The translations under genes and the position numbers were made by a program. A stretch of DNA of 64,000 bases from Methylomarinum vadi (GTDB lineage Bacteria; Pseudomonadota; Gammaproteobacteria; Methylococcales; Methylomonadaceae), in contig NZ_JPON01000001.1 of assembly GCF_000733935.1 (NCBI RefSeq), positions 1,302,001-1,366,000 of the forward strand. Direction: 5' to 3'. Every line of letters begins with the position of its first letter. Within the stretch, counting starts at the first letter, position 1. Positions 14,308 through 49,825 of the stretch are shown here, one piece after another. A model generated the notes under the pieces. That model saw nothing but the letters and a program-made list of their open reading frames with translations, did no database searches and was not told where the DNA came from.

Positions 14308-15801
14308 AATTGATTAGTGTTGTCATTGACCAGTGAGGATTTTACCACCAGTCGACAACCGGCAAAACCGTAAAAAACGCTGGCAGTTAAGAGGTGCGTA
14401 ACAATTGCTGGAATTGTTCATTTTTCTGACAATCGCTAACCCCAAACCGGTTCCGGCGTATTTACGGGTGTTCGACGCATCGACCTGCGTGAAAGGTTCA
14501 AACAAAACGCTTTGTTGCTCCGTGGAAATGCCGATACCGGTATCCTCAATCAACACTTCCAACATATCTGGACCATTGTTATCTTCATGATGACTGACCG
14601 CTACTGAAACATAACCTTGTTCGGTAAATTTAACCGCATTATTCACCAGGTTATAGAGAATTTGCCGAAGTTTCTGCTCATCACCAAAGAAATATCGCGG
14701 CAAATTCTCGCTTAAACAATGCCGCAATTCGATCGACTTACGCCGGCACTCGTAACACTGCCCTGAGATTACCGTCAACAAAACTTGATAAAAGTCGACG
14801 CAAACCTGATCGACTTCCATTTTTCCCGCTTCGATTTTGGAAAAATCGAGAATATCGTTGATTTGAGTTAACAACGAATTGGCGGATTGGTTGATAATCG
14901 ATACATATTCCTTCTGCTCCGGATTCAAGGTAGAGTCTTTTAATAAATCGGAAAAACCAATCACGGCGTTCAACGGAGTCCGAATTTCATGACTCATAAC
15001 CGAGAGAAATTCGGATTTGGCAATACTGGCTTTTTGCACCTGTTCCGCCAAGATTATGGCTTTATTTCTCGCCTCGATCAGATCGGAAGTCCTTTCTCCG
15101 ACCTGTTGCTCGAGCGTGTCTTTCTGGTCTTTTAAGGCCTCGTTCCAATCATGGATTTTTTCCATCATATCATTGAAGGCTCTTCACAAACGGCCGACCT
15201 CATCATTCGTCGTGACATGGGTCCTTTTTTGGTAATTATCGGAACGACTCACGTCCTCGCTGATTTCGACCAGATCCAGAATCGGGACGGACGATCTTTT
15301 AGCCACCTCTTCCAGCATAAAAACACCATTAACCCGGCGATGGCTAAACCCAGTAAAGCGATACCCAATTCTCTTATCAACCGTTGATAGGTATCGCGTA
15401 AGCTGACAACCAACACGATTCGGCCGTATTCTACTTGTCGTATATCAAAGACTTGCAACGTCTGCAGCGCAAACAATATCTGACGGCATTCGGCAAGCGA
15501 TTGACCGTTAATTTCCCAATCTCCCTCGCGTATAAACTCGGCAAAGGGACGCTGCTACCCCGGCTTAATAACCGCGGCATAGATTACGTTCTTATGCGCA
15601 TGGAGACTTTGTAGCGTTTGCTTGGCTTCCTCGCTGTTATCGAAAATCAACGAGGGAATGACGGATAAGGCGATCACTTCGGTCAGCGCATTGAACTCGT
15701 TTTCCAACACCATCCGATTCGAAAGCAACGTGTTGATCAGCAACACACTACCGGCACTCAAGGCCATGAACAGTATGCTCGTACTGATCAGTAGCCTTAA
15801 T

Positions 15802-16387
15802 TATCCATCATAAGGTTTAAACCACCGGCTTTAGCCGGTCAGCTTTAGCTGCGATAATTTGCCCAAGGAGGTGGCGATGGACTATAGATACGGCAGCCAT
15901 ACGGTTTACCAAATTGAGTATCATTTTGTTTGGGTTACGAAGTATCGTTATAAAGTGCTGAAGGATGAAATAGCCGAACGAGTGAGAGACTTGGTGCGGC
16001 AGACATGCGAAGCCTTTGAGATACGGATTATCAAAGGTGTCGTGAGCAAAGATCATGTGCACATTTTGGTGAGTGCGCCGCCGACTATGGCCCCAAGCGA
16101 AATCATGAGGCGAATCAAGGGACGAACTTCGAGCTATCTGTTCGAAGAGTTCCCGCACTTGAAAAAGCGATATTGGGGTCGACATTTTTGGGCCCGCGGT
16201 TATTTTTGCGCCACAGTGGGGCAAATGACTGATGAGATGATAAAGCAATATTTGGAGCATCACTTTGAACCTAATCCAAACGATAATTTCAAGATGGAGC
16301 CCGACTAAGACGCGTCGTTTAGTCGACGCGTATCCGGACTTTCAGTCCGTTATTGGAACCCACCCGCTTGAGCGGGTGGTTGTTTAG
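15802..16387 (+). mobile_element. IS200-like insertion sequence, copy 2 (complete, intact tnpA)
   Basis: 586-bp element with no terminal inverted repeats. The left end TATCC follows the target TTAAT (15797-15801); the right end TTTAG is followed by T. Subterminal hairpins: left ACCGGCT/AGCCGGT (15824-15839) and CAGC-TTTA-GCTG; right CCACCCGCT/AGCGGGTGG (16360-16379). Two further hairpins lie between the tnpA stop and the right end (16309-16350). This architecture, one Y1 transposase and insertion next to a fixed pentanucleotide without target duplication define IS200-type elements. It interrupts the sensor kinase gene twelve codons after its start. Confidence 0.96.
15877..16308 (+). CDS. tnpA: IS200-family transposase TnpA (intact)
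   Basis: 143-residue Y1 transposase acting as a dimer on single-stranded DNA. The metal-binding motif is H60-V-H62 and the catalytic tyrosine is Y125 in KQYLEHH. The ATG at 15877 has AGGAGG at the proper distance; a TTG 18 bases upstream lies before that site. The 5' leader holds hairpins that in IS200 elements typically limit expression. This copy and that at 48313 are the only complete genes in the window and are the probable source of activity for the others. Confidence 0.96.
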   Translation: MDYRYGSHTVYQIEYHFVWVTKYRYKVLKDEIAERVRDLVRQTCEAFEIRIIKGVVSKDHVHILVSAPPTMAPSEIMRRIKGRTSSYLFEEFPHLKKRYWGRHFWARGYFCATVGQMTDEMIKQYLEHHFEPNPNDNFKMEPD

Positions 16388-16433
16388 TTATTCCTGATCG
16401 ACGCATTGCCAAATCCCAGCATAGAGAGTACCT

Positions 16434-16991
16434 TTAATTCTTTACCGCCTGGCCAACAATCCGGGCCAATTTTAAAATTCGCCAGTTGATGACCAAACCG
16501 GACCGTTTGACGGCATCTAAGTTAATATTGAGTTGAATTTTGCCGCCATTATTTCCCAGCCCCACCATGCCGCCCGCTTTAACGAAATCCAGGCTATCAC
16601 TCACCGTCAACATGGGTTGCCTTTGAAATTACAACACCAAGGGCAACAATTTAGAGCGCTTCATCTCGCTGATGAACAAAATCTAGCATTGTTCTATATT
16701 GCGAAGGCGAGACAGATTGACTACTTCCAGGCGCCTTCCGCCAATATTAGAGCGATCCACCTGCTCGAATGATTCTTGCACGACATTACCGCCAAAGACA
16801 CTCAGTTTCAGCGTCGCCCCGGTTTGTGGAAGAACTTGCTCCGCCCAGTCAGTGAAACGCGTCAAATTCAATGTCAACACGCTCAATAATTGCTGTTCTT
16901 CAACGGTTTTCGCATTCACCGATAGCATGACAATCAAACGCAGCAGCATGACTACCCCGAAGGAAATAACTATTTGCAACGAAAAAATCAC
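16434..16991 (-). pseudogene. YfiR-like (DUF4154) periplasmic protein, decayed
   Basis: Remnant of a YfiR-family protein, which in other bacteria is a periplasmic repressor of a membrane c-di-GMP enzyme or a partner of a sensor kinase. A hydrophobic N-terminus is followed by LTLNLTRFTDWAEQV, the LKLSVFGGN strand and IGGRRLEVVNLSRL; after the TAG at 16683-16685 the same frame continues with ILFISEMKRSK, a second stop TAA at 16629-16631, then LTVSDSLDFVKAGGMVGL and a typical INLDAVKRSGLVI end. Both stops look like CAA/CAG to TAA/TAG changes. The stop at 16434 is 12 bases from the kinase start, so the two formed one operon. Copies 2 and 3 of the IS flank it. Confidence 0.75.
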
Positions 16992-17208
16992 GATACTCGA
17001 ATTCCTTCCGGTTCATTTTGCCAATAAACGCCGAAAGAAAACAGGTGTCTACATATATGGCAAAAAAATACCATAGTTTTATTTCGGCATCAGTTTCTTC
17101 GTACTGGGTTTGTCGGAACGCTTAGCAAAATTTCGATTCGATATCTGAATTCCCGCTAATCGAATAAAGCGCCAACAATCAATACCTCTGAGTTGAGCAA
17201 CGCAACTA

Positions 17209-17794
17209 CTAAACAACCACCCGCTCAAGCGGGTGGGTTCCAATAACGGACTGAAAGTCCGGATACGCGTCGACTAAACGACGCGTCTTAGTCGGGCTCC
17301 ATCTTGAAATTATCGTTTGGATTAGGTTCAAAGTGATGCTCCAAATATTGCTTTATCATCTCATCAGTCATTTGCCCCACTGTGGCGCAAAAATAACCGC
17401 GGGCTCAAAAATGTCGACCCCAATATCGCTTTTTCAAGTGCGGGAACTCTTCGAACAGATAGCTCGAAGTTCGTCCCTTGATTCGCCTCATGATTTCGCT
17501 TGGGGCCATAGTCGGCGGCGCACTCACCAAAATGTGCACATGATCTTTGCTCACGACACCTTTGATAATCCGTATCTCAAAGGCTTCGCATGTCTGCCGC
17601 ACCAAGTCTCTCACTCGTTCGGCTATTTCATCCTTCAGCACTTTATAACGATACTTCGTAACCCAAACAAAATGATACTCAATTTGGTAAACCGTATGGC
17701 TGCCGTATCTATAGTCCATCGCCACCTCCTTGGGCAAATTATCGCAGCTAAAGCTGACCGGCTAAAGCCGGTGGTTTAAACCTTATGATGGATA
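17209..17794 (-). mobile_element. IS200-like insertion sequence, copy 3 (complete, defective tnpA)
   Basis: 586 bp, the same ends as copy 2 but on the other strand: TATCC at 17794 next to TTAAT (17795-17799), right end at 17209 followed by T on the minus strand. It lies immediately after truA and its target supplies the truA stop codon, which is kept. Its transposase has a premature TGA. With copy 2 it forms an inverted pair around 821 bp. Confidence 0.96.
17405..17719 (-). pseudogene. tnpA: IS200 transposase with premature stop (copy 3)
   Basis: Identical in layout to the intact gene, but codon 105 (Trp in GRHFWARGY) is TGA instead of TGG, giving a 104-residue product. The HUH motif is kept; the helix with catalytic Y125 is lost, so the protein cannot cut DNA. 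The same base change is found in the copy at 33007. Confidence 0.93.
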
Positions 17795-17795
17795 A

Positions 17796-18599
17796 TTAAT
17801 CGAACCGTTCGGCATTTTTGGGCAATTTAGCAAAGACAGGATGTGCGCTAATGCCATATTTTTCCGGGTAAAAAACACCTCCCAAATACAGACCTTGCGG
17901 CGGCGCGGTCAATCCACCCTGTTTGCGATCCTTAACCTGAAGCAAATACTCGGTCCAGTCTTCCGGCTTGCGTCCGCGGCCTATATCCATCAACACCCCG
18001 GCAATATTGCGAACCATGTGATGCACGAATGCATTGGCCGAAATATCCATGATCACTCTATCCTGCTCGCGATGGACGTCGATGAAATACATAAGCCTGC
18101 AAGGACTTACCGACTGACAACTGGTGGCGCGAAACGAGGAAAAGTCATGCTCGCCGATCAGCGCTTGGGCGGCCCGGTGCATTTTTCTCTCATCGAGTGG
18201 TTCGAAGCACCACGTCATTTGCCGATGGACTAATGCCGAATTGACCGGTCGATTAAAGAAAATATAACGATAAAAGCGGGCGATAGCATTGTAACGCGCA
18301 TGAAAATCGTCAACCGCCGGCCTGGCCCACAAAACCCTGACGTCGTCCGGCAACTGAGTGTTGCTTCCCATGACCCAGGCGCGCGGATCGCGCTCAACCT
18401 CGCAATCGAAATGCACAACCTGCTCCAAGGCATGGACACCGGCATCGGTGCGTCCGGCACAAACCACCGTGATCGGCCGGGAGGCTATCTTAGTCAAAGC
18501 CTTTTCCAGTTCGGCCTGCACGGTACGCTTGCCCTGCTGATGTTGCCAGCCGTGAAAGCGGCTTCCGTCATATTCGACGCCTAATACGATTCTGGGCAT
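17796..18599 (-). CDS. truA: tRNA pseudouridine(38-40) synthase
   Basis: 267-residue enzyme that makes pseudouridine in the anticodon arm of tRNAs. The catalytic aspartate is D52 in CAGRTDAGVHA; the FHARYNAIAR.YRY and HHMVRNIAGVLMDIG motifs are in place. The stop codon TAA lies inside the TTAAT target of IS copy 3, so the protein is not altered. In relatives truA is often followed by trpF; here the DUF2231/kinase/YfiR patch separates them. Confidence 0.96.
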   Translation of the reverse strand: MPRIVLGVEYDGSRFHGWQHQQGKRTVQAELEKALTKIASRPITVVCAGRTDAGVHALEQVVHFDCEVERDPRAWVMGSNTQLPDDVRVLWARPAVDDFHARYNAIARFYRYIFFNRPVNSALVHRQMTWCFEPLDERKMHRAAQALIGEHDFSSFRATSCQSVSPCRLMYFIDVHREQDRVIMDISANAFVHHMVRNIAGVLMDIGRGRKPEDWTEYLLQVKDRKQGGLTAPPQGLYLGGVFYPEKYGISAHPVFAKLPKNAERFD

Positions 18600-18664
18600 G
18601 GTTAAACAAAACTCATCGTTTGTGAAATTTCGACACAGGGGTGTTTTTCAGAGAACGCCGTTCA

Positions 18665-18728
18665 CCCAGCACCTAAATTCCATAGACTATTGGCTATGTC
18701 CATCATCTTCGTTAATTTAGGTGCTGGG
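18665..18728. repeat. Inverted-repeat element with 15-bp perfect arms
   Basis: CCCAGCACCTAAATT (18665-18679) pairs with AATTTAGGTGCTGGG (18714-18728). The 34-base loop holds a second small palindrome CATAG...CTATG and the string CATCTTCGTT. It stands in the 284-base gap between truA and the YkuD gene, both on the minus strand. It has no T-tract typical of a terminator. A related string (CATCTTCGTC) occurs in the inverted-repeat element at 32178, suggesting a dispersed repeat family. No gene is seen elsewhere in this gap. Confidence 0.6.
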
Positions 18729-18883
18729 GTCTTTACGACAGCATCTGACCGCCAAGGATGATAGAAATGCAGGTTTTGCAGGGAGCCAAAATCTGCCCTG
18801 CTGTCGAAACCCCTGCTAAACTCCCCTGTACCGCCTTGGTTAAATGCCGAAATTTGAAATGCGAATGGTATAAAAATATCCCC

Positions 18884-19375
18884 CTATTCATGGATAAAAA
18901 CCCGACAACCGACTGCAATGCGACCGAACAAATCGACCACATCGGCGTTCTTCATACGGATGCAGCCGTGCGACGCGGGTTTTCCCTGCAGCAGATGATC
19001 GGGGCACCCGTGGATGTAAATATAGCGCCAACCGGAATCGACCCGGCCATAACGGTTCCTGCCCGGCTCGAGGCCGTTCAGCCACAGTATCCTGGTCAAG
19101 ATCCAGTCACGCTCGGGATGGGTGCGGGCCAATTCCGCGGTGTAAGTCTCTCCGGTCGGCCTTCTGCCGACGAAAATCGCATTCAACGGCTGATCCGCGC
19201 CGATCTTGGCGCGCACCTTATGCCATCCCCGCGGCGTGCATTCGCTACCCATCCGCTCGCCGGGACCGTTCTTCGCGGTCGAGACCGAATAGGCCTTGAC
19301 CGTAACCCCCTTCTGAACCAGCCGCAGCCGTTGCTCGGCAATCGACACATCGAGATAGGATTCGTTCTTGATCAT
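18884..19375 (-). CDS. YkuD-domain (L,D-transpeptidase fold) protein without signal peptide
   Basis: 163 residues, almost entirely YkuD domain. The catalytic set is complete: H122 (YIYIHGC), then S135-H136-G-C138-I-R-M with nucleophile C138. YkuD enzymes normally cross-link peptidoglycan or attach lipoproteins outside the inner membrane, yet this protein starts MIKNESYLDVSIAEQ with no hydrophobic leader, and no upstream in-frame start is possible because its ATG overlaps the rlmD stop (ATGA). Either export is not by a classical signal or the protein works in the cytosol. The name therefore describes the fold, not a proven reaction. Confidence 0.8.
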   Translation of the reverse strand: MIKNESYLDVSIAEQRLRLVQKGVTVKAYSVSTAKNGPGERMGSECTPRGWHKVRAKIGADQPLNAIFVGRRPTGETYTAELARTHPERDWILTRILWLNGLEPGRNRYGRVDSGWRYIYIHGCPDHLLQGKPASHGCIRMKNADVVDLFGRIAVGCRVFIHE

Positions 19376-20706
19376 TTCTCGAACAGTGCAATCGACTCGA
19401 CATGGGCCGTCTGCGGAAACATGTCCATCACCCCTGCCTTAACCAGCTTGTAGCCCAGCTCATTGACCAGAATGCCGGCGTCGCGCGCCAGCGTGGACGG
19501 ATTGCAGGAAACATAGACGATGCGCTCGGGATTCCAATGCTTGAAATTATGCAAGACTTCGGAAGCGCCGGCGCGCGACGGGTCCAGCAAGACCTTGTTG
19601 AATTTCTGCTGGCTCCATTGTTGATCGCTGACATCCTTGCTTAAATCGGCAACATAAAAATCGGCATTGGTCAGATTATTCAGTCTGGCATTCTCGCGGG
19701 CATGCTTGACCAACGGCAGGTCGCCTTCGACCCCGACCACATGACCGGCCAGGGTCGCCAGCGGCAACGTGAAATTGCCCAGACCGCAAAACAGGTCCAG
19801 CACGTTGTCATTCTCGTTCAATTCCAACGCCTCGATGGCCCGATTGACCATTTTGCGGTTGATATCGTAATTGACCTGGGTGAACATAGCCGGGCGGAAT
19901 CTGAATTGTATACCCTGATCCGGCAGGGAATAGCGCGGAACGACCTCCGGGTCGCCCGGAATCGGCATGATCGTGTCCGGCCCTTTCGGCTGCAGACAGA
20001 TGCTGATGCCATGCGCCTTGCCGAACTCGCTCATGATCCGTTTGTCCTCGGCCGTCGGTGGCTCCAGCACGCGAAAAGCCAATACGCATTGCTCGTCGCC
20101 GATGGCGACCTCGATTTGCGGAATCTTGGCCTTGATCGTCAACCTGCCGATCATCTCCGATAACGCCAGCAAATTTTCCCCGACGATCGGGCGCATGACC
20201 TTACAGCTTTCGATTTCGGCCAGAAACGGATTGCGCCGTTCGCGAAACCCGACCAGCACTCGGCCTTTTTTTGCGACGTATTTGACCCCCATCCGCGCCT
20301 TGCTGCGGTAGTTCCAATGCGGCCCTTTCAATGCCTCCCATATTTGCGGGATTTCGACCTTGCCGATGCGGCGGAATTGTTCTCGTAACAAATCCTCCTT
20401 GAAATGGATCTGTTCGCCGTCATCGACATGCTGAAAGCTGCAACCGCCGCAGACACCGAAATGGGGACAGGCCGGCTCCACCCGATGTTCCGATTGAGTC
20501 AGTAAGGCAACCACCTTGCCTTCGGCGTAATCGCGCCGGCTATCGGTATAGACGAACTCCAACTCCTCGCCGGGCAAGGCTTCGTCGATGAATACTACTT
20601 TGCCGTCGACATGGGCGACGCCGCGCCCGTCATGCGCCAACGATTCGATGGTGACTTTGACCGGGGTTTCCGGTATTTTTTTCTTTCTGACTCTTCTGCC
20701 TGCCAT
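19372..20706 (-). CDS. rlmD: 23S rRNA (uracil-1939-C5) methyltransferase
   Basis: 444-residue SAM-dependent RNA methyltransferase with an N-terminal TRAM domain (about residues 12-70), a 4Fe-4S cysteine cluster (CPHFGVCGGC) and a C-terminal Rossmann domain (DLFCGLGNF; DPSRAGA; catalytic Cys in SCNPSTLARD). RlmD/RumA is favoured over RlmC by length and the TRAM domain. The ATG at 20706 begins two bases after the stop of the preceding gene; a GTG further upstream would lie within that gene. Confidence 0.93.
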   Translation of the reverse strand: MAGRRVRKKKIPETPVKVTIESLAHDGRGVAHVDGKVVFIDEALPGEELEFVYTDSRRDYAEGKVVALLTQSEHRVEPACPHFGVCGGCSFQHVDDGEQIHFKEDLLREQFRRIGKVEIPQIWEALKGPHWNYRSKARMGVKYVAKKGRVLVGFRERRNPFLAEIESCKVMRPIVGENLLALSEMIGRLTIKAKIPQIEVAIGDEQCVLAFRVLEPPTAEDKRIMSEFGKAHGISICLQPKGPDTIMPIPGDPEVVPRYSLPDQGIQFRFRPAMFTQVNYDINRKMVNRAIEALELNENDNVLDLFCGLGNFTLPLATLAGHVVGVEGDLPLVKHARENARLNNLTNADFYVADLSKDVSDQQWSQQKFNKVLLDPSRAGASEVLHNFKHWNPERIVYVSCNPSTLARDAGILVNELGYKLVKAGVMDMFPQTAHVESIALFEK

Positions 20707-20708
20707 GC

Positions 20709-21293
20709 TTATTTCTGTTTCCAACTGCCGTTTGAAGTCTGATACCACCACCCGGCGTGGGCGTTACCCACCCAACGCTTGGCGAAGGTATCCTTGATTT
20801 GATTGAACCATTCCGGATGCCCGTTGGCATTGGCGATGGCTTGATAAAGCTTGTTGCGGTCGGCGTTCTCGGCCGCAATCAGTTTGTTGACCTTATTTTT
20901 ATCCCTGAGCGATACGCTGCCCTTGACCGTCAACAGGCCGTCGGCCTTAATGCCGATCGCGCCGTTGTCGTAAAAAGGTTTAAGTTCGGAAAAGCGCCGC
21001 TGCATCGAGGCCTGCACCCTGCGGATATCGGGGCTGTCCACCGAAAGATTGGCTTCGGCATGGGCCGGACTGATAAAAAAATCGAGCACCCGATCCACGG
21101 CATAAAAACTTAGGCGTTGCCCCGTCAGGCCCGATTGCGGCTGTGCCGGCTGTTGCGTGCCGCTGGCCGGTTCCTGTTGAATGTCCTGAATGATCTCGTC
21201 GGCCACTTTCTCGGCCGCCGCGGCCGGAAAATAAATATTGATCGTCACGCAGGCGGTCAAGAACAACGCGCCCAAAAATGTCATCTGTTTCAT
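20709..21293 (-). CDS. DUF1318 (YdbL-like) lipoprotein
   Basis: 194 residues with a lipoprotein signal, lipobox LTAC at about residue 14, followed by the family signature VTINIYFPAAAAEK. A Gln/Pro linker precedes a C-terminal DUF1318 domain (about 90-180) with charged helices. In enterobacteria ydbL follows ydbH-ynbE; here it follows the ydbH-like gene by about 50 bases. YdbL is thought to help the YdbH/YnbE bridge in lipid transfer to the outer membrane. ATGATG at 21291-21296: the second ATG has the better spacing to GGGAGA. The lipobox is unusual, since E. coli YdbL is a soluble periplasmic protein. Confidence 0.75.
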   Translation of the reverse strand: MKQMTFLGALFLTACVTINIYFPAAAAEKVADEIIQDIQQEPASGTQQPAQPQSGLTGQRLSFYAVDRVLDFFISPAHAEANLSVDSPDIRRVQASMQRRFSELKPFYDNGAIGIKADGLLTVKGSVSLRDKNKVNKLIAAENADRNKLYQAIANANGHPEWFNQIKDTFAKRWVGNAHAGWWYQTSNGSWKQK

Positions 21294-21348
21294 CATGGTC
21301 TCCCGTTGGGATAATATCCTCAAAAATGCGCGCAACATTCCGAACCGA

Positions 21349-23382
21349 TTATTCCACCACCGCCTCATCGGTCGCGGTAATCCGGCGTAGCCGCTGTAGC
21401 AACACATTCCAATCCAGACGGGGATTATAGCCGATCACGTCGATCCTGGGCAGGCCGCCCCCCTTGACCAGGTAATAACCGTTCTCGGCCGGCTCGACGC
21501 CCATCATTTGGCAAACCCCGTTATTCAGGTAACACCCGAACCCCAGTTTGTCATACCCGAAGTTATCGAAAAAACGCATGAAACCGCGGGAAATCGCATC
21601 CGCCGCGCCGCCACCGCCGATGCTGGCGATGTTTTCGACCGCCTTTTGGCTGATGCGGTGGCGGGAATCATCGTCCTCCGGCGTGCCGAACCAAGCATAG
21701 AACGACACCGGCCGCCAATTCTCCAGATACAGATTATGCGCGTAACCGGAAAGGCGCCCCTCGATGGAGCCGAACTGAAACTTGCGGGTGATCGCATTCA
21801 GATCGAGATTGTCGACATCGATATCGGCATAGAACTGGGCGAAATCGCTAAACATGCCCGAAGACGCAAGCTTCTTGATAGTCACTTCGCCGTCGAACAC
21901 CTGCATGGTCAGTTTGCCGTTTAGCTCCAGTTTTTTATTCCGGTAACTAACCGATGGAATGCGCCCGCTAATTTCACCGCTGAGCGGCGTCCAGCCCAGG
22001 GCCTGCGACAACTGCTCCAAGGATAGATTGTGCAAGGCTCCGGAAAAATGGACATCGGTATCGTCGTTTTCGGCGGCATAGCTGAACCGTTGAATGTTTA
22101 ATTGGCCGCCCAATAACGGAATGTCGGCGGGCTGTTGCAGTTTGAATTGTTGACCTTCGGTAATGAATTCGATCCGACCGGCTTCGATCGGTATCGCTTT
22201 TAATTTCAACTGCCGCCAGCCCAGGGACGAAACTGCCGCATTGCGCGGCCGCCAATCGATCTTGCCTTCGGCATCGACGACTTGAAAACGTCGTTGGGGG
22301 TCATCGATGCCCAATCCGGAAAAATCCAGCGATATATCCTCGATTGCATCGGATTTCATCGACAAGCCGATGTCCAATCGTCCCGCCGGCGCCAAGCCGG
22401 CGAACGCTCCTGCCTCAAGAAAAGGGGTCAGATATATGGGGGCCGCCGTGGTCAAATCGGGAATCCGCGCGCTGATCCGTGCTTGCCGTAACAATGGTGC
22501 CGAGTTCAGCCCCAAGGTGGCGACCGCATCCAGCTCACCCACCGACGGATGTCGCAACACGGCCGAATGCAGGTTAATTTCATCGCTTCCCGGGCGCCAG
22601 ACACCTTCGCCGGACAGGCTGATCGCTTTCCCTTCGTTGGCTTCCAAAAACACCGGCTCTACGTACAATCCTCCTTCGCGAAAATCCGCATCGCTACGCC
22701 AATGCCATTGCTTAGGTTGTCGTGACGCGCGCAGCGTCGTGGCCAAGGTAATCGCTTCGCCGGCGAGTTTGTTGCCGGCCTGCAACGAAACGCGTTTCAA
22801 CAAGGCGTCGATGAACAGTTCTTGCAATTGCGCCTTACTCCCTCGTAAGTCGAAAGCCAAGTTTGCCGCGCCGACGAGGTTTTGCAGCTGGTCCAGCCCG
22901 ATCTGCTTGTGCAAGTCGGCCAGATCGATAGCGTCTCCCCTTCCCTTAACCCGCCAATTTCCTTCTTGCTCCCAAACCGTGACACTCACTCTACCGCCGA
23001 ACAGGCGCAAATTATCGAGTCGGATGGAGCCCTGTTGATCTTGTACCTGCAGGGAAAAATCGAAGGTCGGTGAGTGTAATTGCTTCGACTCGATGCGTCC
23101 TCGTCCTTGCCGACACTGCAGAAAACGATCCCGCCATTGAAAGGCGTCACAACTAATTTGAAACGCGGAAACGCTATCAAAAGGTGGAGGCAGTCGCAGC
23201 GAGGCCGATTTTAGCGTCCATTGCGCCTGCTCCCTGTCGATGGCGGTCAGGCTTAACGAGACCTCTTTCAGCGACCAGTCGCCAACCGTTATCTTGCCCA
23301 CAGTCAAGGCTGCCGATTGCAAGGCGGCGACTGTCGGAATGTGAATTAACAGTAAGACGATAACAAAAAATTTCAATCGCAA
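21349..23382 (-). CDS. YdbH-like AsmA-family protein
   Basis: 677-residue protein with an N-terminal membrane anchor/signal (FFVIVLLLIHIPTVAAL) and a long beta-rich periplasmic part. The C-terminal region (about 450-640: LSGEISGRIPSVSYRNKKLELNGKL; DLNAITRKFQFGSIEGRLSG) resembles the YdbH C-terminal domain of the AsmA/TamB superfamily, which carry phospholipids to the outer membrane. It is followed by the DUF1318 gene, as in ydbH-ynbE-ydbL. The TTG start at 23382 is uncertain; another TTG lies two codons downstream, and both lack a strong ribosome site. E. coli YdbH is somewhat longer (about 880 residues). Confidence 0.72.
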   Translation of the reverse strand: MRLKFFVIVLLLIHIPTVAALQSAALTVGKITVGDWSLKEVSLSLTAIDREQAQWTLKSASLRLPPPFDSVSAFQISCDAFQWRDRFLQCRQGRGRIESKQLHSPTFDFSLQVQDQQGSIRLDNLRLFGGRVSVTVWEQEGNWRVKGRGDAIDLADLHKQIGLDQLQNLVGAANLAFDLRGSKAQLQELFIDALLKRVSLQAGNKLAGEAITLATTLRASRQPKQWHWRSDADFREGGLYVEPVFLEANEGKAISLSGEGVWRPGSDEINLHSAVLRHPSVGELDAVATLGLNSAPLLRQARISARIPDLTTAAPIYLTPFLEAGAFAGLAPAGRLDIGLSMKSDAIEDISLDFSGLGIDDPQRRFQVVDAEGKIDWRPRNAAVSSLGWRQLKLKAIPIEAGRIEFITEGQQFKLQQPADIPLLGGQLNIQRFSYAAENDDTDVHFSGALHNLSLEQLSQALGWTPLSGEISGRIPSVSYRNKKLELNGKLTMQVFDGEVTIKKLASSGMFSDFAQFYADIDVDNLDLNAITRKFQFGSIEGRLSGYAHNLYLENWRPVSFYAWFGTPEDDDSRHRISQKAVENIASIGGGGAADAISRGFMRFFDNFGYDKLGFGCYLNNGVCQMMGVEPAENGYYLVKGGGLPRIDVIGYNPRLDWNVLLQRLRRITATDEAVVE

Positions 23383-23408
23383 CGAAAAACGGTCGGAACC
23401 CTTTTTGC

Positions 23409-24299: not shown

Positions 24300-24444
24300 T
24301 TCATGCTACCGAATTAATAAAACTGATACGAATTATCCCATAAATTACCGAAACGGGCTCGGCAATACCGCAACGCAAACACTGTGTTGCTTCATTTCAT
24401 CACTGATAGCCACACCCTCGTCTTGCATCATTCTCATTCGCACG

Positions 24445-25509: not shown

Positions 25510-25580
25510 ATTTATGCCTCCGAATTTAATTGAGGCCCATTGTAGTGATCCACCACATACCAGTAAAATGAGTAATTTTT

Positions 25581-32810: not shown

Positions 32811-33396
32811 CTAAACAACCACCCGCTCAAGCGGGTGGGTTCCAATAACGGACTGAAAGTCCGGATACGCGTCGACTAAACGACGCGTCTTAGTCGGGCT
32901 CCATCTTGAAATTATCGTTTGGATTAGGTTCAAAGTGATGCTCCAAATATTGCTTTATCATCTCATCAGTCATTTGCCCCACTGTGGCGCAAAAATAACC
33001 GCGGGCTCAAAAATGTCGACCCCAATATCGCTTTTTCAAGTGCGGGAACTCTTCGAACAGATAGCTCGAAGTTCGTCCCTTGATTCGCCTCATGATTTCG
33101 CTTGGGGCCATAGTCGGCGGCGCACTCACCAAAATGTGCACATGATCTTTGCTCACGACACCTTTGATAATCCGTATCTCAAAGGCTTCGCATGTCTGCC
33201 GCACCAAGTCTCTCACTCGTTCGGCTATTTCATCCTTCAGCACTTTATAACGATACTTCGTAACCCAAACAAAATGATACTCAATTTGGTAAACCGTATG
33301 GCTGCCGTATCTATAGTCCATCGCCACCTCCTTGGGCAAATTATCGCAGCTAAAGCTGACCGGCTAAAGCCGGTGGTTTAAACCTTATGATGGATA
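32811..33396 (-). mobile_element. IS200-like insertion sequence, copy 4 (complete, defective tnpA)
   Basis: 586 bp, ends as in the other copies, next to TTAAT (33397-33401) and followed by T on the minus strand. It lies in the same direction as the SulP gene that it splits. Removing it rejoins the SulP frame exactly. It carries the same TGA at transposase codon 105 as copy 3. Confidence 0.96.
33007..33321 (-). pseudogene. tnpA: IS200 transposase with premature stop (copy 4)
   Basis: 104 codons before a TGA that replaces Trp105; the catalytic Y125 is lost. Otherwise identical in layout to the intact genes at 15877 and 48313. It shares the lesion with the gene at 17405. Confidence 0.93.
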
Positions 33397-39794: not shown

Positions 39795-39797
39795 AAA

Positions 39798-41069: not shown

Positions 41070-41072
41070 TTT

Positions 41073-42329
41073 CTATTCCTTTTCCCAAATGCCGCGGGCA
41101 TCGATTATCACTTTTTCATTCAATGTGGTCAGTTTGACCTGTTTAAAAACGCTATGATCGGTCAGCGTCACAATGATATTGGCCGCCTCCAGACCTTCGG
41201 CGAGACCGGTCAATTTTACATGTGCCTGATTCAGTTTGGCTGGCAGCGACTTGATATGCGGTTCGACCACCATGATTTCACCGATTTCTTCCTCAATGAT
41301 TTTTTGCGTGATCGCGACAGCCGGACTCTCCCTCAAGTCATCGATATCCGCCTTGAAAGCCAATCCTAGGCAAGCAATTTTCGGTTGTTTGAATTCAGCG
41401 GCAACCTTACGCACCTTGTTCAGTACAAATTCCGGTTTGCTGTCGTTGACTTCCCTGGCCGTGCGGATCAAACGCGCCTGTTCGGGCGCGGAGTCGACGA
41501 TGAACCACGGATCGACGGCGACACAATGGCCGCCGACGCCGGCGCCCGGATTGAGAATATTCACCCGAGGATGGCGGTTGGCCAGCTTGATCAACTCCCA
41601 GACATTGATTCCCAAGCGGTCACAAATAATCGACAATTCGTTGGCGAAGGCGATGTTGACATCGCGAAAGGAGTTTTCCGTCAACTTCGCCATTTCCGCC
41701 GTTCTGGCATCGGTAATCAGACAATCGGCCTTGACGAAGATTTTATACAGGTCTTGCGCCCGGGCCGCGCATTTCGGCGTGATGCCGCCGATCACGCGGT
41801 CGTTCGCCACCAATTCCTGGATCACATAACCTGGCAAAACCCGCTCGGGGCAATGCGCGATCAGAATATCGGCCTCGTCCCCCCCCTGATGGGGGAAATT
41901 CAAATCCTCCCGGACTTCACTCATCCAGCGCGATATTTTTTCCGTCGTGCCGACCGGCGAGGTCGATTCCAATATCACCAAATTTCCTTTCTGCAATACC
42001 GCCGCCACTTTTTTCACCGCCGCCTCGATATAGGACAAATCCGGCTTAAACCCGTCTTTGAAAGGTGTCGGAACGGCGATGATAAACGCATCGGCCGGTT
42101 CCGCCTCGGTCGTCGCCCGAAGCTTACCGGTGGTGACGGCGCTTTGCACCAGCATATCCAGATCCGGCTCGACGATATGTATCTTACCTTGATTAATGGT
42201 GTTGACGGCATGTTCCGATACATCGACGCCAACTACCTCTATCCCTCTGGAGGCGATCACGGCGGCGGTCGGCAAGCCGATATAGCCCAACCCGATAACA
42301 GAAATTCGATTAAAGGTCGTTTGCTGCAT
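41073..42329 (-). CDS. wecC: UDP-N-acetyl-D-mannosamine dehydrogenase
   Basis: 418-residue dehydrogenase that turns UDP-ManNAc into UDP-ManNAc[14 protein letters not shown] loop, [14 protein letters not shown], catalytic C269 in [13 protein letters not shown], and [15 protein letters not shown] are all present. It overlaps wecB by 20 bases; the pair supplies ManNAcA. Confidence 0.93.
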
Positions 42330-43446
42330 TGATTATTCCCTCTAGAATGCGCTGGCTGGCCTTGCCGTCACCGTAAGGGTTATGGGCAAAACTCATTGCC
42401 TCATACGCCTCCCGACTGTCCAGCAGCTGGTTGACATGCTTAATGATGCGTTGTTCGTCGGCACCCACTAATTTGACCGTGCCAGCCGTAACAGCTTCCG
42501 GCCTTTCCGTGGTATCGCGCATAACCAGGACGGGTTTGCCGAGTGAAGGCGCCTCCTCCTGCACGCCGCCGGAATCGGTCAAAATAAGATCGGCTTGGTT
42601 CATCAAATAAACGAAAGGTAAATAATCCAACGGTTCGATCAGATGAATATTGGCTATGCCTGCCAAGATACGATTGACCGGCTCGCGCACATGCGGATTC
42701 AGATGGACCGGGTAAACGATCTGCACGTCTGCTCTGGTCGATAATTTTTTTAATGCCTGGCAGATTTGCTCGAACCCGGCTCCGAAGCTTTCCCGCCTAT
42801 GTCCCGTCACCAGAATCAATTTCTTATCGGCCTCGAGAAACGAAAATTGTGCCGCCAGTTGCCCGGCTAAACGAGCATCTTGACCGAGTTTTTCTCTGAC
42901 CTGATACAACGAGTCGATCACGGTGTTGCCGGTAACGACAATACATGAAGCAGCCACGTTTTCCTTCAATAGGTTTTCCCTAGCCGTGTTTGTCGGCGCG
43001 AAATGCAAGTCGGCCAACGCCCCGGTCAGTTTCCGATTGGCTTCCTCCGGCCAGGGAGAATAAAGATTGCCGGTACGCAGGCCCGCCTCGACATGGCCGA
43101 CTGCGACCTTCTGGTAATAAGCGGCCAATGTTGCGGCAAAGGTGGTCGAGGTATCCCCATGCACCAATACCCGATGGGGCTCGAATTCCGCCAGTATGGA
43201 TTCCATTCCGTTCAAAATAGCGCACGTAATGCCGGTCAACCCTTGGTTCTGACGCATGATGTCCAGATCGTAGTCCGGCGAAATGGAGAACAAGTTCAAC
43301 ACTTGGTCCAGCATATCCCGGTGCTGTGCCGTGACGCAGACTTTGCATTGAAAACGTGGGTCCTGCTGCAACGCCTTGACTACCGGCGCCATTTTAATCG
43401 CCTCGGGACGGGTACCGAAAACAATCAGAACTCTAAGATGATTCAT
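42310..43446 (-). CDS. wecB: UDP-N-acetylglucosamine 2-epimerase (non-hydrolysing)
   Basis: 378-residue GT-B-fold enzyme that interconverts UDP-GlcNAc and UDP-ManNAc. Motifs: [13 protein letters not shown] at the N-terminus, [27 protein letters not shown], and [21 protein letters not shown]. The start is two bases from the stop of the glycosyltransferase gene upstream and the end overlaps wecC. Confidence 0.95.
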
Positions 43447-43448
43447 AT

Positions 43449-44642
43449 TTATGATCCCATCAGCTCAATCAAGTAATCGCCGCTGCTGCGCCAACTGAAA
43501 TTCGACTCGACAAACGACCTGTTGCTTGGCGAATGTAATCGCTCGGGGGGCAGGGACAATAATCGACAGGCCTGTTCCGCCATTTGCTCGCAGTCATCGC
43601 CGACAACGACATTTTCCGTATCGTAGCCCTGAATGCCTTCCATCGCTGGCGACGTCGCCAGCACCGTCTTCTCCATGGCCATCGCCTCCAATACCTTGTT
43701 TTGTATGCCCCTGGCTATTCGAAGCGGCGCAACGGCAATGGACGCATGCGCCAAATAAGGCCTGATATCCTCGACACGGCCGGTGACATAAACAGATTGC
43801 TTGTTCTCCAGAGCTCGAACGTCCTTGGCCGGCTTGGAGCCGACGATATATAGCTTAGCTTGCGGGATTTGCCGTAAAATTCGGGGCAGCACTTCCCTGG
43901 CAAACCATACCACCGCGTCGACATTCGCCCAATAATCCATCGCCCCGGTAAAAACCATGATTTTTTCTGCCTGGTTATAAGGGGAGGGGAAAACCATGGC
44001 CGGATTGAAATAATCGACATCGACGCCATTATTGACGGCGGTGACCTTTTCGCTGCATTCGGGCGCCAATTGCTTGAACAATTCAGCCTCTTGCGCCGAA
44101 ACAAACGCCGAGATCGATGCCTGACGGGCCAGCAACCTTTCAAATGACAATAATTTCACCGCCTCCCTTCGATAAACCCAACTCTCGGGCCAGCGTTTTT
44201 TTTGCGCATACTGCCGCCATTTATCGGAATCGACATCGACAAAATCGGCAACGATTTTTAAATCCGGTTTATCAAGAACATATTGCCCCATCACGGAGGA
44301 AAATATCATGACCTTTTCTATACCAAACTGATCGATGGCTCTGTCGACCCAGTCCTGCAGCTCGGCATTATGATAATAAGGCAGACTCAGGGCCTTGCCA
44401 TTAATCAAACCGGTCAAACTTCTGATCTTCGCGGTCCTTGGTTGCAATGGCAAACAGAACACGTCCCGACAATAAGCGGACAGTTCCTCCCTATATTGCC
44501 AATCCTGTTCATCATCGACAAAAGTCGCCAGGAACACATTGAAACGTTCCGACAACGCTTTTAAAAAATGAAAGGAACGGATCTTATCGCCTTTATTGGG
44601 CGGAAACGGTATTCTATGAACCAGAAACAAAATGTTTTGCAT
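43449..44642 (-). CDS. XrtA/PEP-CTERM system glycosyltransferase (TIGR03087 type)
   Basis: 397-residue GT-B glycosyltransferase. The N-terminal [19 protein letters not shown] is the signature of the exosortase-associated TIGR03087 family; the C-terminal part has the GT4-like donor motif ([16 protein letters not shown]...[28 protein letters not shown]). It is the only glycosyltransferase in the locus. The sugar donor is unknown. In other XrtA loci the exosortase gene is usually close by; it is absent here. Confidence 0.9.
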
Positions 44643-44664
44643 GACCAGCCATTAATCGATTGAA

Positions 44665-45690
44665 TCAACCTAAATCTTTTGCCAACCATGGCCCCACGAG
44701 TTGACTGACGGGTAACGGCAATTTTTTCCAGGCCGCAATAAACAAGCGGTATTTGGGGTTTAGTGGATTGACATCCGGAATGGATTTGGAATTGACCAGA
44801 TCGAATTCATAGTACAGAGGCTGCGGCTCGAATCCCCAGTGTTTTTTAAAGCGGTAAGAGCCGGTTCCTTCCTTGCTGCGACCAAAATCAAAAACCTTGC
44901 ATCCCTTCTCCACCGCCCGGCGCATGACCTCCCAATACATGAAATCGTTGCCCTGAACCGAACGGGCGCGTTCGGTTCCTCCCCCATAATAAGGCAACAC
45001 CTCGCCCTTGAAATAAAAACTCATGACGCTACTGATTAGTTGGCCCTGGGAGTCGACCACCGTAAGGATTTCGCAGTCTTCCTTGAATACTTCCTTCAAG
45101 TAGCGAAAATATTTCTTGGTAAAAACCGGCGTACCCAGATTACGAACACTTTCCGAATACGCCCGGTAAAAACGTTCTATGCCTTCATCTATTTCGCTAA
45201 TCAAACCCGCCTTCGCTCCCTTGCGGACCATGGCCCGTTGCTTGCGGGGAATAGCCTGCATATTGTCTTCCACGTTATCCAGCAAATCCTTTTTAAACGT
45301 CACATACAATTTCTTATACGGTCTGTCCGGCGTGATTTGCGCTGTGTTACGCATTTCCAGATAATCGACGCCCAATTCCCGAGCAATCTCCCCGGCTTTT
45401 CGGTCCAATGCCAACGTCGCCTCTTCGTTATCCGCCACGATGCCGCCATATACGCAAAAGGCGGTAGAACATAAAGAGTTTCCGAACAATAGGCTCTTGA
45501 TGTGTACCAGGGGCAATATACCTATTATGACGCCGTTTTCTTCTGCAAACAGATAGTAAGTGTCGTGATTGAAGGAACGCTGTATTACCTCTCTCCAACC
45601 CGCTCTATGGAAAAAAGTCGAACCCTGAGATTGGTTCACATAATCATCCCATGCCTGAAGTGTGTTCTCGTCCAATAATTTTATATTCAT
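44665..45690 (-). CDS. FemAB-family XrtA-associated protein (TIGR03019 type)
   Basis: 341-residue protein with a GNAT-like double fold of the FemAB/peptidoglycan bridge family; conserved motifs include STFFHRAGWREVI near the N-terminus, PRKQRAMVRKG, and a C-terminal FDFGRSKEGTGSYRFKKHWGFEP. In exosortase loci such proteins are assumed to attach an amino acid to a sugar of the exopolysaccharide; this is not proven. No membrane segment is seen. Confidence 0.9.
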   Translation of the reverse strand: MNIKLLDENTLQAWDDYVNQSQGSTFFHRAGWREVIQRSFNHDTYYLFAEENGVIIGILPLVHIKSLLFGNSLCSTAFCVYGGIVADNEEATLALDRKAGEIARELGVDYLEMRNTAQITPDRPYKKLYVTFKKDLLDNVEDNMQAIPRKQRAMVRKGAKAGLISEIDEGIERFYRAYSESVRNLGTPVFTKKYFRYLKEVFKEDCEILTVVDSQGQLISSVMSFYFKGEVLPYYGGGTERARSVQGNDFMYWEVMRRAVEKGCKVFDFGRSKEGTGSYRFKKHWGFEPQPLYYEFDLVNSKSIPDVNPLNPKYRLFIAAWKKLPLPVSQLVGPWLAKDLG

Positions 45691-45710
45691 GTGATGCTGA
45701 CAGAGGCGGT

Positions 45711-46574
45711 CTATTTGATAAAAACGTTTTCCATGGTGTTCCAGTCAAAATCCCGTATCAGTGCTCTGATCCGTTCTTCCATCCTGCTCAAGTTTAGATA
45801 ATGACGAAAGCGGGTTTTCAGAGAAATGCCTTGCTGCCTGGGTTGTCCGGCATCGATCTCCCAAGGATGAAAATAAAAGATAGCCGGTTGTTGTTCTTCC
45901 GTATTGATTTTGTTTAATGCCCATTTGGAAAATGCATAAGGGTAAAAACGAAAAAAACCTCCGCCACCACAAGGAACATGCTTATGCCATAAATCGAGCG
46001 TGGTAATGGGTATTTCCTTGAAATTAGCTTCCGTTAAAGGCGAATAAACAAAACGTGGGGCATCCGGAATGCCGTATAAATCATGTTTGACCGGGTAGAT
46101 ACTGGAACTATAGAGGAAGCCTTCTTGGAATAGCACGTCGTGCGCCCACAAATTCTCCTTATCGATGGAATAACTAGCCGCTCTGTAGCCGATGACGGAC
46201 CGCCCGGCTATATCTTCCAAGATATTTTTAGCCCGACGAACATCGGCACGAAACAACTCCGGGGTTTGCTCGGTGACCCTGATATGGCTAAAACCATGGC
46301 AAGCCAATTCATGACCCTCGTCGACGATGCGGTTTATCAATCGTGGATAACGCTCGGCGACCCAGCCCAAGGTAAAAAACGTCGCATTAATACCCAACTC
46401 ATCGAAAACATCCAAAATACGGTGGGTATTTGCTTCGACTCTATGCGGCAATTCATCCCAGCATTCCCTGTCGATATAGGGTTCGAATGCGGAAACCTGG
46501 AAATAATCTTCGACATCGACCGTCATCGCATTGACAATCGATTTTTGGGGGGGTGTAGCCGTTGTCATGGTCAT
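45711..46574 (-). CDS. XrtA-associated polysaccharide deacetylase
   Basis: 287-residue NodB-homology (CE4) deacetylase with the C-terminal DUF3473 extension of the exosortase-associated subfamily. Catalytic base in VDVEDYF (D23), zinc ligands H93 and H97 in ACHGFSH, then GYRAASYSI and the GGGGFFRFYPY stretch. It probably removes N-acetyl groups from the polymer or a precursor. Four bases separate it from the ATPase gene. Confidence 0.92.
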   Translation of the reverse strand: MTMTTATPPQKSIVNAMTVDVEDYFQVSAFEPYIDRECWDELPHRVEANTHRILDVFDELGINATFFTLGWVAERYPRLINRIVDEGHELACHGFSHIRVTEQTPELFRADVRRAKNILEDIAGRSVIGYRAASYSIDKENLWAHDVLFQEGFLYSSSIYPVKHDLYGIPDAPRFVYSPLTEANFKEIPITTLDLWHKHVPCGGGGFFRFYPYAFSKWALNKINTEEQQPAIFYFHPWEIDAGQPRQQGISLKTRFRHYLNLSRMEERIRALIRDFDWNTMENVFIK

Positions 46575-46577
46575 CAG

Positions 46578-47603
46578 TTATTCGCCATCGGAATAAACAT
46601 CACTCATATCCAGCTGAATCAATATGGCTTTTCTTAATAATTCCTGCTCCTTTTTAAGTTTCAAACTTAATTCATTGACTGTTTGTTCCAGCATGGCGAC
46701 TTTCTGCTCCAGATTTCCGTCAATCGGTGTAATAGTGGTAGTTTGCGGTGAAATATTATTATTTATTTTCTGGGCAGCCATCGTCTTATAGTCTTCCTTG
46801 ATTTCGGCAATCACTTTTTGCGTGGCATTCAAATCAATGTGATTTAATTCCTCCAGAAAGCCGTAGAGTAACAGTCTGTCGCAAACGGTATTGATTCGTC
46901 TGGGAATGCCCTTACTGAAATCAAAAATAGCCGTGATGGCCTCATCATGAAATCTTGGATTTCCCTGCCATCCAGCTTTTTCCAAGCGAAAAAAAATATA
47001 ATCCCGGGTTTCTTCAACATTTAATGCTTTCAACTGATAGGTTGCCACAATCCGTTGTCTGACCTGCTCCATATCCGGTGAAAAAATACGCTTACCCAAT
47101 TCCTCCTGACCAATTAAGAAGGTCTGGAAAATAATATTCCCCTCCCATTCAAAATTCGACAGCATGCGCAATTCTTCAATCGATTGATTAGGCAGATTAT
47201 GCGCCTCATCGACAATCAATAATACCCGCTTGCCCTGCTTGGCCTTTTCCTTGAAAAACCCTTCGATTCTATTCAATAAAGTCGCTTTGGTATCATCCAA
47301 TTCGTAATTAATAGCGAATGTCGCCGCTAATAATCTCAACGTATCTTCCGCTCCTACGCTGGAACTGACAAGGGAACCGATCACAACGGACTGGTCTTTT
47401 TCCAGAAACTTACTCAGTTCCTTGACCAGCATGGTTTTCCCGGTTCCAGGAACGCCGGTCACCACGACAAAACCTTCGCCTTGCGCCAAGCCGTAGCGTA
47501 AGTAAGCCTTTGCCCTTTTATGGCCGGAGCTATCGAAGAAAAAAGCCGGGTCAGCGTTTAATTGAAACGGATTTTTCGTTAATTTATAAAAAGTTTTATA
47601 CAT
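46578..47603 (-). CDS. XrtA-associated ExeA-like ATPase (TIGR03015 type)
   Basis: 341-residue AAA ATPase: Walker A GVPGTGKT (50-57), Walker B VLLIVDEAH, sensor QTFLIGQEEL, then a C-terminal coiled coil (about 285-325). The N-terminal MYKTFYKLTKNPFQLNADP is typical of the ExeA/GspA-like ATPases that accompany XrtA loci. It may energise assembly of the export apparatus. Its start touches the stop of the outer-membrane protein gene. Confidence 0.9.
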   Translation of the reverse strand: MYKTFYKLTKNPFQLNADPAFFFDSSGHKRAKAYLRYGLAQGEGFVVVTGVPGTGKTMLVKELSKFLEKDQSVVIGSLVSSSVGAEDTLRLLAATFAINYELDDTKATLLNRIEGFFKEKAKQGKRVLLIVDEAHNLPNQSIEELRMLSNFEWEGNIIFQTFLIGQEELGKRIFSPDMEQVRQRIVATYQLKALNVEETRDYIFFRLEKAGWQGNPRFHDEAITAIFDFSKGIPRRINTVCDRLLLYGFLEELNHIDLNATQKVIAEIKEDYKTMAAQKINNNISPQTTTITPIDGNLEQKVAMLEQTVNELSLKLKKEQELLRKAILIQLDMSDVYSDGE

Positions 47604-48233
47604 TTAGAATCGCATTGACAAGCTGGCGCTGATTCGATTTTCCGAAAACTCATTTCCAGGCAGGTCCGACTGTTGATCGGTAAAGCTGTATTGGATTCTG
47701 CCATAGAGATAACTGTAAATATTACGGGTCACATTGACCGTTGCTTGAAAACGCTCGTCCTGGGTCGAATCCTGACCTTCCGTCGTTTGCCAAAACAGGC
47801 GGATATTCGAGCGGGTATTAGCGGCAAAATTCCAGTTCCACGAACCGCCAAATCCAAAGATATCCTCCCCGTTTTGGCTGACTTGAAATTCCCTTCTTTC
47901 GCGGTAGGCGTTGAGATTAAAGATACTCTTACCGGTAAAAAAGGAAACCGATAAGTCTCCTCGTTTCGTAATAAAAACTTCATCTGTTAACGTCGGCAGA
48001 TCTGCCTCAAATTGTACATTATTAAAATTATTGTCTAAAAAATTAACAAGTTCTACCGGCACATCGGATGCTGAAGGAAACAATATCGGATTTGCCTGAC
48101 TTAATCTCTCTGCGGTACTGGCCCCGGTAGTCTGATTAAGATAATCGGAATAAGAAATACCGAACAGCTGCTGGAAAGTACCTCGTTGCCGAGTCAACAA
48201 AACCTGCTGGGTAGTCACGGTATTTTCGCTGTA

Positions 48234-48819
48234 CTAAACAACCACCCGCTCAAGCGGGTGGGTTCCAATAACGGACTGAAAGTCCGGATACGCGTCGACT
48301 AAACGACGCGTCTTAGTCGGGCTCCATCTTGAAATTATCGTTTGGATTAGGTTCAAAGTGATGCTCCAAATATTGCTTTATCATCTCATCAGTCATTTGC
48401 CCCACTGTGGCGCAAAAATAACCGCGGGCCCAAAAATGTCGACCCCAATATCGCTTTTTCAAGTGCGGGAACTCTTCGAACAGATAGCTCGAAGTTCGTC
48501 CCTTGATTCGCCTCATGATTTCGCTTGGGGCCATAGTCGGCGGCGCACTCACCAAAATGTGCACATGATCTTTGCTCACGACACCTTTGATAATCCGTAT
48601 CTCAAAGGCTTCGCATGTCTGCCGCACCAAGTCTCTCACTCGTTCGGCTATTTCATCCTTCAGCACTTTATAACGATACTTCGTAACCCAAACAAAATGA
48701 TACTCAATTTGGTAAACCGTATGGCTGCCGTATCTATAGTCCATCGCCACCTCCTTGGGCAAATTATCGCAGCTAAAGCTGACCGGCTAAAGCCGGTGGT
48801 TTAAACCTTATGATGGATA
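48234..48819 (-). mobile_element. IS200-like insertion sequence, copy 5 (complete, intact tnpA)
   Basis: 586 bp, ends as in copies 2-4, next to TTAAT (48820-48824) and followed by T on the minus strand. It is inserted in the same direction as the exopolysaccharide genes. Its transposase is intact. Confidence 0.96.
48313..48744 (-). CDS. tnpA: IS200-family transposase TnpA (intact)
   Basis: 143-residue Y1 transposase, with H60-V-H62 and Y125 both present and Trp105 encoded by TGG, unlike the copies at 17405 and 33007. AGGAGG precedes the ATG. Confidence 0.96.
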   Translation of the reverse strand: MDYRYGSHTVYQIEYHFVWVTKYRYKVLKDEIAERVRDLVRQTCEAFEIRIIKGVVSKDHVHILVSAPPTMAPSEIMRRIKGRTSSYLFEEFPHLKKRYWGRHFWARGYFCATVGQMTDEMIKQYLEHHFEPNPNDNFKMEPD

Positions 48820-49825
48820 ATTAAAGGACCAGGTCGAACGCCGCGTATTGTATCTGAGAGAAGACTGCCATCTATCCCCGGTATTGGTTCCTATATCGTT
48901 ATTACTATACGTCGTACTCCAGGTAATCCTTCTGATAGGCATGATGTTGACGGTGACAAAAGCATTGTTACCATAACCGGCCTGTACACTGAACCGCGCA
49001 CTAGGGCGCCATTGCCCACCGGCCGTATAGAAAAAGCCGTTGTTGTTACTATCGGTCGTGGTTTGAAACTGATTTTCCGAATGCCCGGCCCTTATGAAAG
49101 CGCTCAGCTCTCTATTTAAAAAAGTCCTTAACTCCGCCGATGAATTTTGAAACTGCACATCATCGCCTTCGCTGTAATAACTTTTCCGATTGTTAAATGC
49201 CACCGACCATGTAAAACGGGAAAAATCCCTTCCACTGTGTAAACTGATATTTTGACTAAAGCTATTGGTATTGGACAAAGAAGTGCCTCCGTCGGAGGAA
49301 ATCCTATCGTAGCTTACCCTGACCAAACCGTCGGCAAAGCCTTTCAAATGAGGGGTCCAATAAGGTGAAATGTTAAACGTCGTTATAGTCGAACTGCTGG
49401 AATCGCCAGTCAGATTGTCGGTAGCTAAGTTCCTATTGGAAATATTCTGTTGACTGATAGAACTACTGCTATCCATGTACAAAGAATTACGCAAAAGCTG
49501 GTATTTGGAATTAAATTGTAATTGATTATTGATATTCAGACCCGAACCACCGCCTGCATTGTATAAACCTTGCATCCTGTAATTCAGGTTAAAGGTATTG
49601 ATCGAAGAGGTAGAACGTAAGGAAATTCCGGGACTCACTTCGGTGACCAAAGCGCTACGTTTATTATCGCTTGCCTGGTTTATGTTATCGGAATAAGTCT
49701 CTTCAATATTTAAAGTGGGTCTGATTACCCAATCAAAAGCTAAAGCATGATCAGCACAAAAAGCAAGGAACACCAATAATAGTATATTTTTTTCCCGGGT
49801 ATTCCATCTTCTTTTCAGGTTCTCG

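Follow-up and report, generated by a model that had tools for sequence, protein, structure and literature searches.

A 586-base-pair (bp) insertion sequence (IS) with a single transposase gene, tnpA, was found in four complete copies and one edge-cut copy within a 64,000-bp stretch of the Methylomarinum vadi genome (positions 1302001 to 1366000 of a 4,335,162-bp contig; hereafter, the window). Genome-wide there were 96 complete 586-bp copies (78 stretches fetched), and codon 105 of tnpA was TGA in 78 of them and TGG (Trp) in 18. The stop ends the transposase, TnpA, before its catalytic residue, Tyr125. We propose that this IS200-group insertion sequence is in, or just past, a large recent burst and that the TGA copies were mobilized in trans by the intact ones, a reading to which we assign a probability of roughly 0.7.

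An initial annotation, made from the window sequence, had described the element as IS200 type, and both Pfam and Protein Data Bank (PDB) matches bore this out. The TnpA of 143 amino acids (aa) matched the Pfam family Y1_Tnp (PF01797; 157.7 bits, E value of 1.7e-46) and eight distinct PDB sequences of transposases, among these ISHp608; the matches 2xm3, 2xma, and 2xo6 are presumably TnpA of ISDra2. The protein has a DHVHI motif, and Tyr125 was aligned to solved TnpA. Subterminal hairpins were present at both element ends, with stems of 6 bp (left) and 8 bp (right) and z scores of −7.45 for the right hairpin and only −1.95 for the left. The 586 bp hold tnpA and are too small for an extra tnpB of about 1200 nucleotides, a gene that ISDra2 carries; on the opposite strand, the element also has an open frame of 148 aa. 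The element therefore belongs to the IS200 group of the IS200/IS605 family and encodes a single Y1/HUH transposase; the mechanism of this family is already known. An Rfam search of the window gave no matches at the gathering threshold.

A six-frame Pfam search of the genome returned 106 Y1_Tnp matches, comprising the 18 intact and 78 interrupted copies and 10 others, namely, eight distant genes and two further copies, an older one at 589041 (TGA in the frame read) and a damaged one at 1580. The 96 copies fell into six haplotypes (76 copies with G390A, 15 reference, 2 with G492A, and three singletons). The recent expansion that had been suggested from the near-identity of the window copies is supported by these numbers, but at codon 105, a functional site, the window copies are not equivalent: copies 1, 3, and 4 have TGA, whereas copies 2 and 5 have TGG. 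Trp was present at codon 105 in all 80 relatives kept (the best 80 of 579; three of these had other tnpA stops), indicating that TGG is the ancestral state. The TGA copies showed the features of a non-autonomous derivative, with intact ends, a defective transposase, and many sites reached, as 77 distinct flank pairs were observed among the 78 copies; the 18 TGG copies had 18. One TGA copy was head-to-tail with a TGG copy at 159370/159956, and there were two private substitutions among the 78 TGA copies. Although the numbers are small, the 96 copies carried altogether eight distinct substitutions; read on the transposed strand, six of these were G to A, with no C to T among them.

By analogy with IS608 and ISDra2, TnpA dimers would bind the hairpins at both top-strand ends while these are single-stranded on the lagging-strand template, and Tyr125 would cut 3′ of TTAAT and of TTTAG. 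The element would then close into a circle, which would insert 3′ of another TTAAT picked through base pairing with the left guide. The W105 nonsense mutation may have arisen once, early in the burst. Its descendants, which keep both ends and lose the catalytic tyrosine, would have been moved in trans by the full-length TnpA of intact copies, and the non-autonomous allele would thereby have become the majority.

An alternative that we consider unlikely is that UGA at codon 105 is read through, most likely as Trp by tRNA-Trp, the TGA copies being low in expression yet autonomous and the attenuation accounting for both their tolerance and their spread. Such read-through would regain the ancestral residue seen in the 80 relatives, and the frame downstream of the stop was open in all 78 TGA copies; however, an open frame is expected anyway in copies as young as the private substitutions indicate. 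The single tRNA-Trp found had a CCA anticodon, its D-arm strand (GAGC) was unchanged, and a suppressor tRNA-Trp was not found when these two features were compared. TGA also terminated 16 of the 43 stop-to-stop frames of at least 250 aa in the window, on which basis general recoding of TGA was rejected; TGA is an ordinary stop in this genome.

Several points weigh against trans-mobilization as we propose it. Low-level UGA read-through could also yield enough TnpA. The order of alleles on the chromosome was non-random (20 allele changes against 29.5 expected, P = 0.003; with neighbors collapsed, 20 against 27.8, P = 0.013), and simple genome-wide trans-mobilization does not predict such clustering. 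Clustering of the TGG copies is compatible with either local insertion or conversion; a test of the median distance from a TGG copy to the nearest other one gave no significant result (P = 0.11). In a neutral copying (urn) model, the chance of reaching 78 of 96 was 0.19, 0.03, or 0.007 when starting with one, two, or three TGG copies, and on this model a neutral founder explanation would hold only if about two or three copies existed when the nonsense arose. Finally, since the copies are near-identical repeats, the allele assigned to each may be affected by read polishing, and the start of the contig seems not to have been polished.

The clustering is a point in favor of gene conversion, by which copies inserted as TGG would later have been overwritten to TGA (or partly back) through recombination, for which near-identical copies are good partners. 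We regard this as improbable, given that the direct TGA-TGG tandem pair is still present, that G492A is limited to two TGG copies and the other substitutions to single copies, and that conversion would still require a cause for 78 versus 18. The urn model bears in turn on a two-source origin, in which both alleles were acquired, or the TGA element came with a helper, and the ratio only mirrors founder numbers. The chance of 0.19 for a one-to-one start and the presence of two more diverged copies, at 588882 (97.8% identity) and 1931839 (four substitutions), speak for such an origin. The majority TGA and TGG haplotypes are only one base apart, though, as fits mutation within this genome, and we consider two sources very improbable.

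In comparison with known systems, the element resembles IS608 (ISHp608) in its Y1/HUH TnpA, its subterminal hairpins, and its insertion 3′ of a fixed, short target that stays in the left flank (PMC5934647). The same paper reports guide-target pairing in IS608, an active site that TnpA of IS608 assembles in trans from two subunits, and a preference of IS608 and ISDra2 for a given base directly after the cut; PMC5371812 gives lagging-template bias as a known behavior of the family. Base preference past the cut, guide-target pairing, and lagging-template bias are thus shared with IS608. The IS608 target is TTAC with C at +1, whereas ours is the five-base TTAAT with T at +1, and unlike IS608 our element has no tnpB, about a hundred copies, and a nonsense majority. 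The target of ISDra2, TTGAT, likewise has five bases and the same form, and the base past its cut is strict, being G in about 90% (PMC5934647). Our element differs from ISDra2 in having A at target position −3 and T at +1 and in the absence of tnpB.

The nearest precedent for the nonsense majority that we found is the IS605 element of Halanaerobium hydrogeniformans, most copies of which likewise have no intact tnpA. According to PMC7290912, 17 of its 22 copies are of the deleted type 5, a single tnpA is intact, and mobilization in trans is considered feasible for the copies that lack an intact gene; the causes proposed there were a shorter element, escape from TnpB, or early formation plus selection against TnpA. 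That majority type is 282 nucleotides shorter, and its success may therefore be a matter of size. No lagging bias was seen among the Halanaerobium elements (10 of 22 on the leading strand; PMC7290912), whereas our TGA copies are full length with one base changed and strongly biased. Because the TGA copies are full length, their success is not owed to small size, and with length unchanged and tnpB absent from the element, an early founder, selection against TnpA, or read-through remain as explanations. A majority created by a point nonsense mutation is the interesting and, to us, apparently new part; no report of one was found in the open-access literature searched by listings, a search that says little.

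It has long been asked why autonomous copies are displaced by non-autonomous ones, and the question is usually confounded by deletions that make the element shorter. In the present genome, the two alleles are equal in length and have identical ends, in 96 near-identical copies, so that the effect of transposase loss can be tested alone. It is possible, though we hold it only tentatively, that transposase loss is itself favored in a replication-coupled IS, with the nonsense allele outcompeting its autonomous parent by about 4:1 in one genome, because trans-mobilized copies bear no expression cost or because UGA read-through lowers TnpA. If so, the allele clustering would also point to insertion near the donor.

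The 96 copies also form a clear natural record of lagging-strand insertion. The origin was placed by the best dnaA match (2645353) and the terminus by the only dif-like site (581200; one mismatch to the dif consensus), and the GC skew of the fetched stretches switched sign near both. The target-bearing strand was the lagging-strand template in 85 of the 96 copies (P = 2.5e-15), with 51 plus and 4 minus copies on the right arm and 34 minus and 7 plus on the left. The bias was present in both alleles (70 of 78 TGA copies and 15 of 18 TGG copies). Target availability was rejected as its source, since background TTAATT sites in the fetched DNA were not skewed to the lagging template (120 lagging, 150 leading). 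Such a bias is predicted by single-strand transposition and known for the family. Three of the 11 exceptions (397702, 405323, and 446932) formed a group no more than 185 kb from dif, a region in which replication forks may converge.

Relatives of the element showed joint changes of guide and target across all four base pairs. From 79 left ends found in the relatives' loci, 74 were distinct and 72 could be assigned to a target, two being unassignable. Element base 17 was complementary to target base −3 in 71 of these 72 (A-T, 51; T-A, 15; C-G, 3; G-C, 2), the exception being A with A. For base 20 and target base −1, the counts were A-T in 70, G-C in 1, and T with T in 1, and these are constrained, since the target pattern allowed any base at −3 and only T or C at −1. 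The relatives' elements share descent, so that independent changes of guide and target are fewer than the counts. The covariation indicates that the target would be chosen by guide base pairing. The closest relatives by sequence were elements of Methylobacter marinus A45 (97% in TnpA) and of genome G036 (90% in DNA), which have the same right end and TTAAT target, a near-identical left end, and the Trp codon. The G036 copy shares its flanks with that at locus L139, which was the one checked and which differs from our element in having a different stop in tnpA. Elements of G028 and G008, from the same family as the host, share ends and flanks with those of Methylovulum miyakonense (L164) and a Methylobacter metagenome-assembled genome (L112), which points to a gammaproteobacterial methanotroph as the probable host.

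Within the window, the copies and their parts were located as follows.
1..291, minus strand: copy 1, left-end part, cut by the window edge; whole in the genome at 1301706-1302291 (586 bp); TGA allele
15797..15801, plus strand: target TTAAT of copy 2 (left cleavage site)
15802..16387, plus strand: copy 2, complete, 586 bp; TGG, intact tnpA
15818..15821, plus strand: putative left guide of copy 2, element positions 17-20, TAAA, from covariation in relatives; position 17 pairs with target base −3
15824..15839, plus strand: left subterminal hairpin of copy 2, 6-bp stem
15877..16308, plus strand: tnpA of copy 2, 143 aa, Y1_Tnp; Trp105 codon at 16189-16191; Tyr125 aligned to the tyrosine of solved TnpA
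16360..16379, plus strand: right subterminal hairpin of copy 2, 8-bp stem, preceding the right end TTTAG
17209..17794, minus strand: copy 3, complete, 586 bp; tnpA at 17719-17288, TGA at 17407-17405
32811..33396, minus strand: copy 4, complete, 586 bp, in a sulfate-permease-family gene; tnpA at 33321-32890, TGA at 33009-33007
48234..48819, minus strand: copy 5, complete, 586 bp, in a 551-aa frame; intact tnpA at 48744-48313, TGG

These coordinates, with TTAAT before and T after each copy, agree with the initial annotation, and copy 1, followed past the window edge, was likewise 586 bp with the same flanks. The earlier reading of the window is supported overall; what it could not reveal were how large the expansion is, the bias in replication strand, the pairing of guide with target, and the nonsense allele in 78 of 96 copies. 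Removal of copy 4 gave a single 544-aa frame and removal of copy 5 a 551-aa frame, as had been claimed. The gene at copy 4 had been read as SulP with a STAS domain: the Sulfate_transp domain was confirmed, whereas the 125-aa C-terminal piece had no Pfam match at an E value of ≤0.1, which leaves STAS unconfirmed. The 551-aa protein had a Pfam match only for its C-terminal piece, and this was sub-threshold (BBP2_2, beta-barrel, E value of 0.014). Removal of copy 2, said to restore the first codons of a sensor kinase, regained about 12 codons, but these open a frame of 93 aa that a TAG terminates. Since the HisKA/HATPase part lies in a frame of its own, the kinase is broken beyond the insertion. 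The gene (14323-15801 and 16388-16430, minus strand) has frame changes as well as the TAG stop besides the IS insertion and represents either a decayed gene or sequencing errors.

Genome-wide, a 25-base left-end pattern gave 102 matches (60 plus, 42 minus; 100 listed, all exact) and a 33-base right-end pattern gave 98 (97 exact, one with a terminal A); the same patterns run backwards as controls gave none. Outside the 96 complete copies were a 599-bp copy at 1479, the older copy at 588882 (no exact left end), the outer pieces of three 643-bp composites (whose inner 586 bp were counted), and two mismatched, unlisted left-end matches. The TTAAT flank, expected on every copy and present on all those of the window, preceded 80 of the 96. 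The remaining 16 comprised 6 near-matches (TTCAT, 2; TTGAT, 2; GTAAT, 1; TTTAT, 1) and 10 flanks in the element's own sequence, namely, TTTAG of another copy's right end (6) or ATAAT (3) and ATCAT (1) in another copy's left end. The element was followed by T in 95 copies and by A in 1 (at 4060080). The ends had been considered resolved to the base, but as the element starts with T and T comes next, the window copies alone leave a one-base ambiguity in where the element ends. The presence of T in the target, at the element start, and past the right end fits a single rule for the three cuts (TTAAT^T, TTTAG^T).

Precise insertion without target duplication, another claim made from the window, was upheld by empty sites in the same genome and by a frame test. 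A repeat with the target site was found without the element at five places and with it, in both orientations, at four others, and removal of 586 bp from the filled repeats gave the empty sequence over the printed stretch, exactly in three; the fourth (1771816) was of equal length with four substitutions. The frame test used 80 of the 96 copies, leaving aside the 10 with own-sequence left flanks and the 6 first copies of tandems. Exact 586-bp removal was favored at 14 of the 16 sites with a joined frame of at least 500 aa; for frames of at least 150 aa (n = 39), the best length was 586 in 23, 585 in 10, and 584 in 6. The repeat that was hit is about 670 bp in its five empty copies (L208 to L212), which end in CACTGATTCAGG with differing sequence beyond, and its AATTAATT site was filled four times in both orientations (L033, L058, L070, and L076).

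Tandem pairs were formed by 6 copies lying directly 3′ of another copy's right end, TTTAG. As each copy retains TTAAT|T at its left edge, it offers a fresh target, and the genome has 2163 TTAATT sites. Rough arithmetic gives an expectation of 2 to 3 tandems by chance; 6 is somewhat higher, but calls for no special mechanism. Full copies at 1013016 (L053), 1147131 (L057), 3561550 (L086), and 3599535 (L088) were preceded by a left-end piece of another copy, 57 bp at three places and 10 bp at one, the remainder of that copy being missing. Our guess is that each inserted into a left end already present and that a deletion between repeats came afterwards.

The contig start (G000:C1:1-4998) repeats the end at 4317158-4322107 (L031, L108) with 98.2% identity, 75 gap openings, and 6 mismatches. 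This is probably an untrimmed, unpolished circular overlap, and the copy at 1479 is probably a damaged duplicate of that at 4318634. The eight distant Y1_Tnp genes have frames of 175 to 261 aa, seven of them over the cutoff (e.g., G000 2247870, 3862491, 1528836, and 3257596), and are perhaps, as a guess, REP-associated transposases.

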